NCBI GenBank assembly: GCA_937920635.1
Contig: CAKZUE010000033.1
Span: 62,001-126,000 of the forward strand
Direction of reading: 5' to 3'
Length of the DNA: 64,000 nt
Source of the DNA: an uncultured Bryobacteraceae bacterium
GTDB taxonomy: Bacteria > Acidobacteriota > Terriglobia > Bryobacterales > Bryobacteraceae
Part shown: piece by piece, positions 24,373 to 27,893 of the stretch
Layout of the letters: every line of letters starts with the position of its first letter
Position numbering within the stretch: the stretch's first letter is position 1
The notes under the pieces: generated by a model
Database searches by the model: none
The model's input: only the letters and a program-made list of their open reading frames with translations
Told to the model about the DNA's origin: nothing
Made by a program: the position numbers and the translations under genes

Positions 24373-25350
24373 GTGATTCACAGACGCACGCTGGGCAGAA
24401 CCGGTTTTCCGATTTCCGAAGTCGGCTTCGGCGCCTGGGGCATCGGCGGCAACCAGTGGCGCGGCCACTCCGAGGACGAAGCCCGCGCCGCCCTGCGCCG
24501 CGCTCTCGAACTCGGCGTCAACTTCATCGATACGGCTCTCGCATACAACGAAGGCCACAGCGAGCGCATCATCGGCGAAACGTTGCGCGAAACCGGCGCG
24601 CAGGCCTATGTCGCCACCAAGGTGCCGCCGAAGAACCGCATTTGGCCCGCTCAGCCGGGCATCGGCATCAAAGAGGTTTTCCCGTACGATTATGTGATCC
24701 GCTGCACCGAGACTTCGCTCGGCAACCTTGGCGTGGAGACGCTCGATTTGCAGCAGTTCCATGTGTGGAATCCGGAGTGGCTGGACCGCGAAGACTGGCG
24801 GCGCGCCATCGAAGACACGAAGAAAGCCGGCAAAGTGCGCTTCTGGGGCATTTCGATCAACGACCATCAGCCGGACTCGGCTCTCGATGCAATCCGCACC
24901 GGACTGATCGACACGGTTCAGGTCATCTACAACATCTTTGATCAGACTCCCGAGCAGCGCCTGTTCCCGCTGTGTCAGGAGCGCAACGTCGGCGTGCTGG
25001 CGCGCTGCCCTCTCGATGAAGGCGCGCTCACCGGGGCCATCACGCCGGAAACCGAGTTCGATCCCGGCGAGTTCCGCGCGTTCTACTTCCGCGGCGACCG
25101 CAAGCGGCAGGTCTTCGAGCGCGTGCAGGCGTTGATCGCCGACCTGGAGGCGGCCGGGCTCGACCGCCCGCTGGCCGAGACCGCCCTGCGCTTCTGCCTG
25201 TCCCACCCCGCCGTCTCCACGGTCATTCCCGGAATGCGGCGAGTGCGAAACGTGGAAAGCAATGCCGCCGTCTCAGACGCAGGGCCGTTGCCCGCCTCTG
25301 TGCTGGAGGTCCTGCGGCGCCATGTCTGGAACAAGAATTTCTACTCTTAG
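24373..25350 (+). CDS. Aldo/keto reductase
   Basis: This is a 325-residue (beta/alpha)8 NAD(P)H oxidoreductase of the AKR superfamily. The catalytic tetrad is visible: Asp in FIDTALAYNEGHSE (with the Tyr of ALAY), Lys in ATKVPPK, and a His in DLQQFHVWN. A C-terminal cofactor segment (STVIPGMRRVRNVESNAA) is present. I start it at the GTG giving V-IHRRTLGRTGF, where family members normally begin; in-frame ATGs at 24340 and 24346 would overlap the opposing gene. The substrate class (aldehyde or ketone, often sugar-derived) is known for the family, not for this member. The next gene overlaps its 3' end by 29 bases. Confidence 0.9.
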   Translation: MIHRRTLGRTGFPISEVGFGAWGIGGNQWRGHSEDEARAALRRALELGVNFIDTALAYNEGHSERIIGETLRETGAQAYVATKVPPKNRIWPAQPGIGIKEVFPYDYVIRCTETSLGNLGVETLDLQQFHVWNPEWLDREDWRRAIEDTKKAGKVRFWGISINDHQPDSALDAIRTGLIDTVQVIYNIFDQTPEQRLFPLCQERNVGVLARCPLDEGALTGAITPETEFDPGEFRAFYFRGDRKRQVFERVQALIADLEAAGLDRPLAETALRFCLSHPAVSTVIPGMRRVRNVESNAAVSDAGPLPASVLEVLRRHVWNKNFYS

Positions 25351-26218
25351 CCTCCTCGCCGCTGCGCTGTCGGCGCAGACGCTGTATCTGCCCCTCGATG
25401 AAGGCAACCTGTGGCTCTACCATGGCGCAGGCGGCCTCCGTGTGGTCGAAGTCAAAGAGTCCAGGGAGTTCGCCGGCAACCGCTACTTCGCCGTCCGGGG
25501 CCTGACCGGAAACGGCGAGGCGTGGATCCGCAACGATGCCGGGGGCCGGCTTCTCGCATGGGACGAGCGCGCCGAACAAGAGCTGGTGCTCCTCGACCCA
25601 ACTGCTCCAGAGGGCTCTTCCTACGACACCGGGATGGATCCGTGCAGCCGCCGGGCCACAGTTGAGTCCCGCAACGCAAACTACTCCGGCCCGGTGGGCG
25701 ATTTCGAAAACGTCCTCCGCGTCGCATACAGCCCGGGGCCGTGCATGGATGCGGGGCTCGCCAGCGAAGACTGGCTGCCCTGGGTCGGCATGCTGCGGCG
25801 TGTGCGCATCACGATCGCCGGACCGCGTGAATACGACCTGATCTACGCCCGGCTCGGCGGCGTCACCTACGTGCGCGCGCCGCAGACAGGGTTCGCGCTT
25901 TCACTGGTTCCGTCCGGAGAAACGCTGCTCGTCAAGATCACACTGCGCCACACGCTCCCCCGGCCTCTCGTTCTGAACTTCTCCAGCAGCCAGCGCTTCG
26001 ACGTGGCCGCCTACGACTCCAATGGGAAGGAGTTCTACCGGTGGTCCCGCGGGCGGGCGTTCCTGACCGTGATGGGGCGCGAGGAGATCCGCGGCGAACA
26101 GACCTGGGTGGCCGAAGTCCCGGTGTCTGAATGGCCGCAGGGCGAGTATGCGATTCTGGCGTGGCTGACGCCGCTGGAAGGGCACGCCTGGAGCGCCTCG
26201 GCTCTGTACAAAAAATAG
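25322..26218 (+). CDS. Secreted protein with C-terminal BsuPI-type domain
   Basis: The protein has 298 residues. It starts at the ATG inside the aldo/keto reductase end, after GGAGGT, which gives a signal peptide (MSGTRISTLSLLAAALSAQ). The first two-thirds is a beta-rich region opening with YLPLDEGNLWLYHGAGG, a pattern I know only from uncharacterised proteins. The last 100 residues match the BsuPI intracellular-proteinase-inhibitor fold (VKITLRHTLPRPLVLNFSSS, QRFDVAAYDSNGKEFYRWS). In secreted proteins that domain is thought to bind other proteins. Role unknown. Confidence 0.7.
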   Translation: MSGTRISTLSLLAAALSAQTLYLPLDEGNLWLYHGAGGLRVVEVKESREFAGNRYFAVRGLTGNGEAWIRNDAGGRLLAWDERAEQELVLLDPTAPEGSSYDTGMDPCSRRATVESRNANYSGPVGDFENVLRVAYSPGPCMDAGLASEDWLPWVGMLRRVRITIAGPREYDLIYARLGGVTYVRAPQTGFALSLVPSGETLLVKITLRHTLPRPLVLNFSSSQRFDVAAYDSNGKEFYRWSRGRAFLTVMGREEIRGEQTWVAEVPVSEWPQGEYAILAWLTPLEGHAWSASALYKK

Positions 26219-26229
26219 GAATCCAGGGA

Positions 26230-26262
26230 TTGCGGCGGGCGAGTATTTCGACTATACTCGAA
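26230..26262 (+). promoter_or_regulatory. arsR promoter with overlapping ArsR operator, abutting the start codon
   Basis: TTGCGG (26230-26235), a 17-base spacer and TATACT (26253-26258) make a near-consensus sigma-70 promoter. The palindrome CGAGTAT-N7-ATACTCG (26240-26260) covers the -10, and a second one, TTCGA-N6-TCGAA (26247-26262), overlaps it; both fit an ArsR dimer site. The ATG is at 26265, seven bases after the -10, so the transcript would start at the ATG: a leaderless message shut off by ArsR occupying the -10. Confidence 0.75.
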
Positions 26263-26264
26263 TC

Positions 26265-26630
26265 ATGAAACAAGCCAGGACGGTCGCCGTCGATCTCGAC
26301 CGTCTGTCCGGAGTGATGGGGGCCATGGGGGCGCCCCAGCGGCTCCGGATTGTCAGGTTGCTGCTGGCGGCCGGCCCGGAAGGGATGCCTGCCGGAGAGA
26401 TTCAGGCGGAACTCGCCGTGCCCGCTTCCACGCTGTCGCACCACCTCGACAGGCTGCGCCAGGCGGGGGTGGTGCATGTCAGGCGTGAAGGGACGTATCT
26501 GTGGTACTCCGCCAACAATGAAGCGCTGGAGGATCTGCTTTCTTTCCTGTACGCCGAGTGTTGCTCCCGGGTGCGTTTGAAAGGGCGGGCGTTGGTGGTG
26601 CAGTGTTCCGGCACAAAACAAAAGAGGTGA
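26265..26630 (+). CDS. arsR: ArsR-family metalloregulatory repressor
   Basis: The 121-residue winged-helix repressor has the recognition helix region LAVPASTLSHHLDRLRQAGVV and the wing HVRREGTYLWYSAN. A C-terminal CysCys pair (AECCSR), with a later Cys in VVQCSG, could be the As(III) site, a placement seen in some ArsR types rather than the ELCVC loop of the E. coli protein. Binding As(III) would release the operator at 26240-26262. It is first in an arsR-arsM-arsC operon, with four bases between its stop and the arsM start. Confidence 0.93.
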   Translation: MKQARTVAVDLDRLSGVMGAMGAPQRLRIVRLLLAAGPEGMPAGEIQAELAVPASTLSHHLDRLRQAGVVHVRREGTYLWYSANNEALEDLLSFLYAECCSRVRLKGRALVVQCSGTKQKR

Positions 26631-26634
26631 ATCC

Positions 26635-27459
26635 ATGAGCGAGAACCAGCCGCTTCAGGAAGCGGTGCGCGAGCGGTACGCGAAGGCGGCTTTGCAGGTC
26701 CTGGGAGGAGCGACGGGCTCCTGCTGCGGGCCGGACACGAGTTGCGGCGCGGGAGGAACCGATCCCATCACCAGCGCCCTGTACGGCGACGGCGAGACGG
26801 CGGCGCTGCCCGAGACTGCCGTGGCGGCATCACTCGGCTGCGGCAATCCCACCATGATGGCTGAACTGAAGCCCGGCGAAACGGTGCTGGACCTGGGCAG
26901 CGGCGGCGGCATCGACGTGCTGCTCTCCGCGCGCCGTGTCGGTCCCACGGGCAAGGCCTACGGGCTGGACATGACCGACGAGATGCTCGCTTTGGCGCGC
27001 GAGAACCAGCGCAAGGCAGGGGTCGAAAACGCCGAATTTCTCAAAGGCGAAATCGAGAACATTCCGCTGCCGGACGCAAGTGTCGATGTCGTGATCTCGA
27101 ACTGCGTGATCAACCTTTCCTCCGACAAAGACCGCGTGCTGCGCGAGGTCTTTCGCGTGCTCAAGCCCGGCGGCCGTTTCGCCGTCGCCGATGTGGTCGT
27201 CCGCGGCGAAGTGCCGCAGGAGATCCGCCGCAGCATCGAGCTCTGGGCCGGATGCATTGCCGGAGCGATGGAAGAAACCGAGTACCAGCGCAAGCTCGCT
27301 GCGGCAGGTTTCGCCGACATCTCCATCGAACCGTACCGCATCTACAACATCGAGGACGCCCGGCAGTTTCTGGCCGATGCGGGCATTGACGTGGAGGCGG
27401 CCGCAGCCGTGGCAAACGGGAAGTTCATGAGCGCATACGTGAAAGCGAGGAAACCGTGA
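26635..27459 (+). CDS. arsM: Arsenite S-adenosylmethionine methyltransferase
   Basis: This 274-residue ArsM has an N-terminal Cys-rich segment (SCCGPDTSCGAG). The SAM site VLDLGSGGGIDVLL and YGLDMTDEML follow, with conserved As(III)-binding cysteines in SLGCGNP, ISNCVINLS and ELWAGCIAG. It methylates As(III) stepwise to mono-, di- and trimethyl forms that are volatile or less harmful. The ribosome binding site AGAGGTGA lies in the end of arsR. The conserved cysteine set makes the arsenic call firm over a generic methyltransferase. Confidence 0.96.
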   Translation: MSENQPLQEAVRERYAKAALQVLGGATGSCCGPDTSCGAGGTDPITSALYGDGETAALPETAVAASLGCGNPTMMAELKPGETVLDLGSGGGIDVLLSARRVGPTGKAYGLDMTDEMLALARENQRKAGVENAEFLKGEIENIPLPDASVDVVISNCVINLSSDKDRVLREVFRVLKPGGRFAVADVVVRGEVPQEIRRSIELWAGCIAGAMEETEYQRKLAAAGFADISIEPYRIYNIEDARQFLADAGIDVEAAAAVANGKFMSAYVKARKP

Positions 27460-27893
27460 TGGAGAAGATTCTGGTCTTGTGCACCGGCAATTCCGCCCGC
27501 AGCCAGATGGCGGAAGGGCTGCTTCGAGCCGCTGTGGGAGACCGCTTTGCAATTCACAGCGCCGGTTCGAAGCCCAGCCATGTGCGCCCCGAGGCGATTG
27601 CCGTGATGCGCGAGATCGGCATCGACATCAGCGGCCATCGCTCCAAGCACCTGGATGAGTTCCTCGGCACGGAATTCCGCTATGTGATCACCGTCTGCGA
27701 CAACGCCGCGGAAACGTGCCCCGTGTTTCCGGGAATCGCCGAACGGATCCACTGGAGCTTTGAAGACCCGGCGGCGGTGGAAGGTGACGAGGAGACGCGC
27801 CTCGGCGCGTTCCGCCGCATCCGCGATCAGATCGCGGAGCGCGTCCGCGCGTTTGCTTCCACGTTCGCCCCTGATGCGGGCCGCAAACATTGA
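27459..27893 (+). CDS. arsC: Thioredoxin-coupled arsenate reductase (low-Mr phosphatase fold)
   Basis: The 144-residue protein has the P-loop CTGNSARSQ with nucleophile Cys8 and the redox pair in VCDNAAETCP, matching the three-cysteine relay (Cys10, Cys82, Cys89) of the Staphylococcus aureus type. It reduces arsenate to arsenite using thioredoxin, supplying ArsM. The start ATG overlaps the arsM stop (TGATG); a GTG three bases earlier is the alternative. It is the last gene of the operon, and no efflux gene (arsB or acr3) follows; the next gene is on the other strand. Confidence 0.94.
   Translation: MEKILVLCTGNSARSQMAEGLLRAAVGDRFAIHSAGSKPSHVRPEAIAVMREIGIDISGHRSKHLDEFLGTEFRYVITVCDNAAETCPVFPGIAERIHWSFEDPAAVEGDEETRLGAFRRIRDQIAERVRAFASTFAPDAGRKH

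Follow-up and report, generated by a model that had tools for sequence, protein, structure and literature searches.

The arsR-arsM-arsC operon of an uncultured Bryobacteraceae bacterium is probably driven by an autoregulated promoter in which ArsR sits over the -10 element and the arsR mRNA is leaderless or nearly so, a reading to which a probability of about 0.82 is assigned on the strength of sequence comparison. The DNA analysed is a stretch of 64,000 nucleotides, herein called the window. In the proposed mechanism, an ArsR dimer would bind an inverted repeat with a TTC-N10-GAA core and the -10 box at its centre, and this occupancy would keep RNA polymerase off the promoter. Arsenic would then bind ArsR and cause it to leave the operator, and transcription would begin at the A of the arsR AUG or no more than a couple of bases from it, so that the arsR mRNA would be leaderless. 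The arsM gene, with a good Shine-Dalgarno (SD) site, and arsC, which overlaps the end of arsM, would be translated conventionally. The expected output would be little repressor and much enzyme, with the translation ratio extrapolated by analogy with AcuR. Both the transcription start at or near 26265 and the binding of ArsR are predictions from the DNA.

Table 1. Features of the arsR promoter region and operon in the window.
Feature	Position	Strand	Remarks
Upstream ORF with BsuPI domain	25262..26218	+	Ends 46 nt before arsR
Putative -35 TTGCGG, weak	26230..26235	+	TTGACA match 3/6; 17 nt from -10
Perfect 7-bp inverted repeat CGAGTAT-N7-ATACTCG	26240..26260		Probably incidental; left arm absent in congeners L011-L014
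Predicted ArsR operator GTATTTC-N10-GAATCAT	26243..26266		Core TTTC 26246-26249 and GAA 26260-26262
Second palindrome TTCGA-N6-TCGAA	26247..26262
-10 element TATACT within operator core	26253..26258	+	Conserved in genus; family consensus TATTAT in same place
Start codon and predicted transcription start (~+1 at 26265)	26265..26267	+	Six bases from -10
arsR, 121 aa, ArsR/SmtB-family metalloregulator	26265..26630	+	NF033788, 71 bits (cut-off 55)
Shine-Dalgarno site of arsM, GAGGTG	26624..26629	+	Overlaps arsR stop
arsM, arsenite methyltransferase	26635..27459	+	NF008823, 361 bits (cut-off 263)
arsC-like low-molecular-weight arsenate reductase	27456..27893	+	GTG start overlaps arsM stop

The features concerned are collected in Table 1. 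The three ars genes are adjacent and on one strand, giving an arsRMC arrangement in which arsC falls below its equivalog cut-off: the match to TIGR02691 has an E value of 5e-39 but reaches only 133 bits against a cut-off of 174, and PF01451 is above its own cut-off. The arsR product belongs to the ArsR/SmtB family, since its winged-helix ArsR domain exceeds the curated cut-offs, with both HTH_20 and HTH_5 (38.6 bits, cut-off 22) above threshold; the nearest solved chain by sequence is 6j05. All five genomes of the genus comparison have an SD-like sequence, judged by eye, ahead of arsM, and no SD site is found in the sequence before the arsR ATG at 26265. This ATG is the sole in-frame start upstream of codon 17, and arsR in the window combines a -10 box 6-9 nt before the AUG with the lack of an SD, the sequence layout expected of AcuR-like leaderless autorepressor operons. 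The coding pattern leaves this start unproven, because codons 2-12 carry no codon-position signal in the genus comparison.

The earlier note had described TTGCGG, a 17-nt spacer and TATACT, followed by only six bases before the ATG, with two nested palindromes over the -10. On re-reading of the sequence, these bases and spacings proved exact, the six bases being CGAATC. The proposed -35 nevertheless fared poorly, being a weak match that goes unreported by a sigma-70 scan (at least 4/6 per hexamer and 9/12 overall) because only three of its six bases agree with TTGACA. Furthermore, comparison of the window genome with its four congeners (L011-L014) gave a pairwise identity of 80% at -20..-1, 33% at -40..-21, where TTGCGG lies, and 51% at -100..-41, where the upstream gene ends; the idea that TTGCGG is a conserved -35 is therefore unsupported. 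The block conserved in the genus is the -10 element plus the operator, ending at the ATG, with TATACT in three of the five genomes and TAAACT or TATTCT in the other two. As for the palindromes, both exist, but only the one with TTC-N10-GAA is conserved: the congeners have lost the perfect repeat CGAGTAT/ATACTCG and kept TTC-N10-GAA, which alone has comparative support, and the perfect palindrome was rejected as the operator for this reason. That perfect repeat occurs once in the window and in none of 100 dinucleotide shuffles; the same holds for the operator-plus-ATG pattern TTTCNNNTANNNTNGAANNATG, which was composed after the relatives had been seen. The right arm of the predicted operator extends into the arsR ATG and is degenerate in the window (GAATCAT) relative to the family consensus ATATTTC-N10-GAAATAT.

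The wider family was sampled from 61 genomes (49 with a match at E 0.001), from 80 named records (the best 80 of at least 545 encoding a relative) and from 237 genomes searched for the family, of which 191 gave a match at E 1e-25. The 201 loci used were reduced to 154 distinct relatives by removing two for short upstream DNA and 45 as duplicates, near-identical relatives being kept. By scoring the 8-base core TTTC-N10-GAAA, which leaves out the AT of the ATG, it was found that 104 of the 154 relatives match at 7 or 8 positions, compared with 10.0 in shuffles (the strict set). At least 6 positions match in 145 relatives (the loose set), a cut-off that is weak on its own because 62.9 of the 154 shuffles attain it. 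Scoring the core jointly with the -10 gave 113 relatives against 2.6 in shuffles, and an earlier count on 108 relatives with the same core had given 80 at 7 or more (6.4 in shuffles) and 101 at 6 or more (40 in shuffles). The column consensus of the 145 relatives, less any lacking a start, reads TTC-N-ATATTTC-N10-GAAATAT-N-GAA, with the -10 as TATTAT inside the N10. In addition, a full TTGACA stands 16-18 nt from the -10 in 30 of the 68 relatives with a 6-9 nt gap, compared with 9 of 770 random positions. In two relatives the operator is intact and the start position is occupied by ATT (L027) or by no usual start triplet (L098), which may reflect a non-canonical start, a sequencing error or a decayed gene. 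Altogether, the comparison of relatives supports the placing of an operator over the -10, as the earlier note had proposed.

The distance from the -10 to the first in-frame start was then compared across the family, in counts that are approximate because automatic site choice misplaces some rows, such as L014. In the strict set the gap is 6 nt in 51 relatives, 7-9 nt in 8, 10-16 nt in 12 and at least 17 nt in 33; in the loose set the corresponding numbers are 58, 10, 30 and 45, with 4 nt in two more, and both sets show the same spacing and frame pattern. The leaderless form is accordingly not obligatory, since 33 of 104 strict relatives have the long gap and 12 the intermediate one. SD-like sequences occur in 20 of the 45 long-gap and 3 of the 30 middle-class relatives of the loose set, and their absence from the 6-9 nt class (0 of 68) follows by construction, only the gap after the -10 having been searched. 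Parsimony on the tree of 154 relatives gave a minimum of 28 changes into or out of the 6-9 nt class, a figure set aside because it has no shuffle comparison and comes from a short protein. Among the 80 named loci, ten are titled as Thermoanaerobaculia or as organisms beyond the usual acidobacterial groups (7 of the long-gap form, 3 of the 6-9 nt form), although titles of assembled genomes are fallible. This count leaves aside the duplicate L040, titled Arcobacter sp., which has the same sequence around arsR as a congener of the window genome and is probably mistitled.

Six bases beyond the -10, 67 of the 145 relatives have the triplet ATG, 25 have ATA and 14 have ATC. If this ATG were operator sequence alone, about one third would be expected in the arsR frame; the observed fraction is 58 of 67 (binomial 2.6e-19, kinship ignored), and 51 of 57 in the strict set. 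Of the 58 in-frame cases, 11 have a complete outer right half-site GAA and 30 a complete left TTC; among the 87 others the numbers are 36 and 36. The right end of the operator is thus relaxed where it must double as codon 2. A tentative extension, which we hold to be possible but somewhat doubtful, is that operator and start codon form one element in this ArsR lineage, with leaderless and leadered forms toggling while the operator stays. The outer right arm (GAAATAT, often then GGAA) would give the AT of the AUG and overlap codon 2, so that the binding site would constrain the first codons of its own repressor, and lineages would switch mostly via the base after that AT or by a frame shift. 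If true, these lineages would possess a defined switch between leaderless and SD-led translation that evolution has used repeatedly. Across the relatives, one repressor with one operator comes with no leader, a short leader or a long one, a large natural series in which the contribution of leaderless translation to an autoregulated switch (a low yield of repressor and a fast reset) could be tested.

In four relatives (L175, L181, L184 and L198), an out-of-frame operator ATG opens an ORF of 3-10 codons with a stop overlapping the arsR start. One-base-shifted overlap with the arsR start was found for 4 of 9 out-of-frame operator ATGs and for 15 of 43 cases of the same register lacking an ATG (Fisher 0.43), and the mini-ORF stop lies 0-8 nt from the arsR start in 7 of 9 versus 16 of 43 in the control (Fisher 0.03). 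The idea of leaderless mini-ORFs coupled to arsR was dropped as unproven, the overlap rate being like that of the control register. In E. coli, upstream AUGs at the 5' terminus have been described that affect the gene following them (PMC4965119).

Other readings of the promoter bear chiefly on where the mRNA and the protein begin. Since the upstream ORF lies on the same strand and ends, at 26218, just 46 nt before arsR, read-through into arsR is conceivable; arsR might then be expressed mainly from upstream or carry a short leader, with ATG 26265 reached without an SD and the -10 at 26253 playing a minor part, and the weak -35, unconserved in the genus, would agree with this. However, the conserved block is precisely the -10 plus operator and stops at the ATG, a longer mRNA would find no SD before that ATG, and the six-base spacing is kept in 51 of 104 relatives, which together make such an arrangement rather unlikely. 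A genuine leader would also arise if translation started further into the gene, from codon 17 (GTG) or codon 18 (ATG). The GGAG just before codon 18 and the poor conservation of codons 2-12 could be cited for this, but the GGAG is only 2 nt from the ATG, codons 13-17 are under protein constraint (no second-position differences in four of the five genus genomes), R13 is nearly invariant in a 15-sequence alignment and each of the five genomes of the genus has an ATG corresponding to 26265. A downstream start is therefore scarcely credible.

A different question is which protein uses the operator. The genome encodes a second ArsR (L002:1383-1836, contig C68), 53% identical and in a different context, which begins 11 nt after a tRNA-Val gene and has GGAG before its ATG; downstream, as judged from the ORFs, lie iron-sulfur and probable molybdenum oxidoreductase genes, and a two-mismatch operator-like site stands between these and the paralogue. 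Both the paralogue and this site could suggest that the operator serves another regulator of the same family, such as the C68 protein, rather than the ArsR of the window. Against this, the strong operator match recurs upstream of the window's own ArsR family in 104 of 154 relatives, whereas no operator was found in front of the C68 gene, and we regard service to another regulator as quite improbable.

Recurrence of the operator in the genome, which has Bryobacteraceae and other Acidobacteriota as its closest named relatives, supplies a predicted arsenic regulon site, shared by arsR-arsM-arsC and acr3. The pattern TTTCNNNTANNNTNGAA has three matches in the 4.15-Mb genome, two of which are the arsR and acr3 promoters; its reversed control has two. 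The acr3 site (L152:2455-2471, G000:C10) has the same operator with a -10 of TAAACT, and about 90 nt separate this -10 from the presumed acr3 start, which has GGAG 14 nt before it. An operator site also precedes acr3 in congeners G002 and G004, no good site was found upstream of acr3 in G003, and G001 gave no acr3 match. The third match of TTTCNNNTANNNTNGAA (L261:1501-1517, G000:C73), where about 7 nt separate the end of the -10 from the start of a ferredoxin-like ORF with ATG as its first codon, may be due to chance because the control pattern also matched.

The preferred leaderless reading of arsR was also set against the host genome, of which 852,970 bases with 420 ATG-start genes were surveyed. 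TANNNT ends 6, 7, 8 and 9 nt before the ATG in 13, 7, 10 and 10 genes, respectively, against a background in the same genome of about 4 per position at 10-19 nt and about 2 at 20-49 nt, pointing to a clear leaderless class. A list of 39 genes of this class, made with a recomputed start model (12 rather than 13 genes at 6 nt, window arsR not included), contains what we take to be mostly housekeeping or secreted-protein genes and one ArsR-family gene; the idea that leaderless genes are mainly regulators was discarded on this basis. The start codon does lie where transcription should begin, at a spacing that recurs in relatives, as the earlier note had predicted. Its description of the switch as unusually compact does not hold, the -10 lying 6-9 nt before the start in 59 of the 104 strict relatives and in about 40 of the 420 host genes. 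A leaderless arsR would be ordinary for this host, given the leaderless class of its own genome and the average of 13.3% leaderless genes in Acidobacteria, where all three genomes listed have them (PMC3160421).

Arsenic is presumed to be the inducer, the exact species being uncertain. A C-terminal CC pair is present in 153 of the 154 relatives, and a stop truncates the remaining one (L039); the next cysteine, counted from the first of the pair, comes 14-16 places later in 91, and 43 have no further cysteine. In the window ArsR it lies 14 residues beyond the pair, at a position that varies even within the genus. AfArsR (PDB 6j05) shares the aligned CC pair and binds arsenic through C95, C96 and C102 (PMC11868830), its third cysteine thus following the pair after six residues rather than 14. 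SpArsR, which lacks that third cysteine, is reported to respond to MAs(III) and not to As(III) (PMC11868830). The ArarsRMC operon of Arsenicibacter rosenii has a different cysteine set, and the available part of the source does not state a leaderless layout (PMC11868830).

Among the literature matches listed, consisting of titles and abstract openings, none describes a leaderless ArsR or an operator overlapping the arsR start except TtSmtB, and none reports an operator arm fused to the start codon and retained in many relatives. TtSmtB of Thermus thermophilus HB27 is an ArsR/SmtB-family arsenic regulator that binds its own promoter, and its own mRNA begins 3 nt ahead of the presumed TTG start codon (PMC5658604). 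It differs in that its own gene has no recognised promoter boxes, the arsenic genes are scattered and the mapped footprint covers the -35 of a different promoter, according to the available part of that report (PMC5658604). Lambda cI and Tn1721 tetR are likewise named as leaderless repressor genes, with unrelated proteins and operators (PMC3017554). The closest parallel is AcuR, encoded in the acuR-acuI-dddL operon of Rhodobacter sphaeroides, where the mRNA was mapped to exactly the repressor AUG (PMC3017554). Like the acuR operon, the operon of the window begins with the gene of an autorepressor, in the window a predicted one, has an inverted repeat, in the window a predicted operator, overlapping the promoter, lacks an SD for the repressor but has SD sites downstream, and has similar operons in other lineages. 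AcuR is a TetR-family protein with acrylate as inducer and experimental proof, whereas the window encodes an ArsR-family protein with presumed arsenic as inducer, predicted from sequence. In the AcuR system, output from the leaderless repressor fusion was about 7.5% of that from the downstream fusion (PMC3017554). AcuR represents this design in a different protein family and is an experimentally mapped precedent for the layout found in the window.
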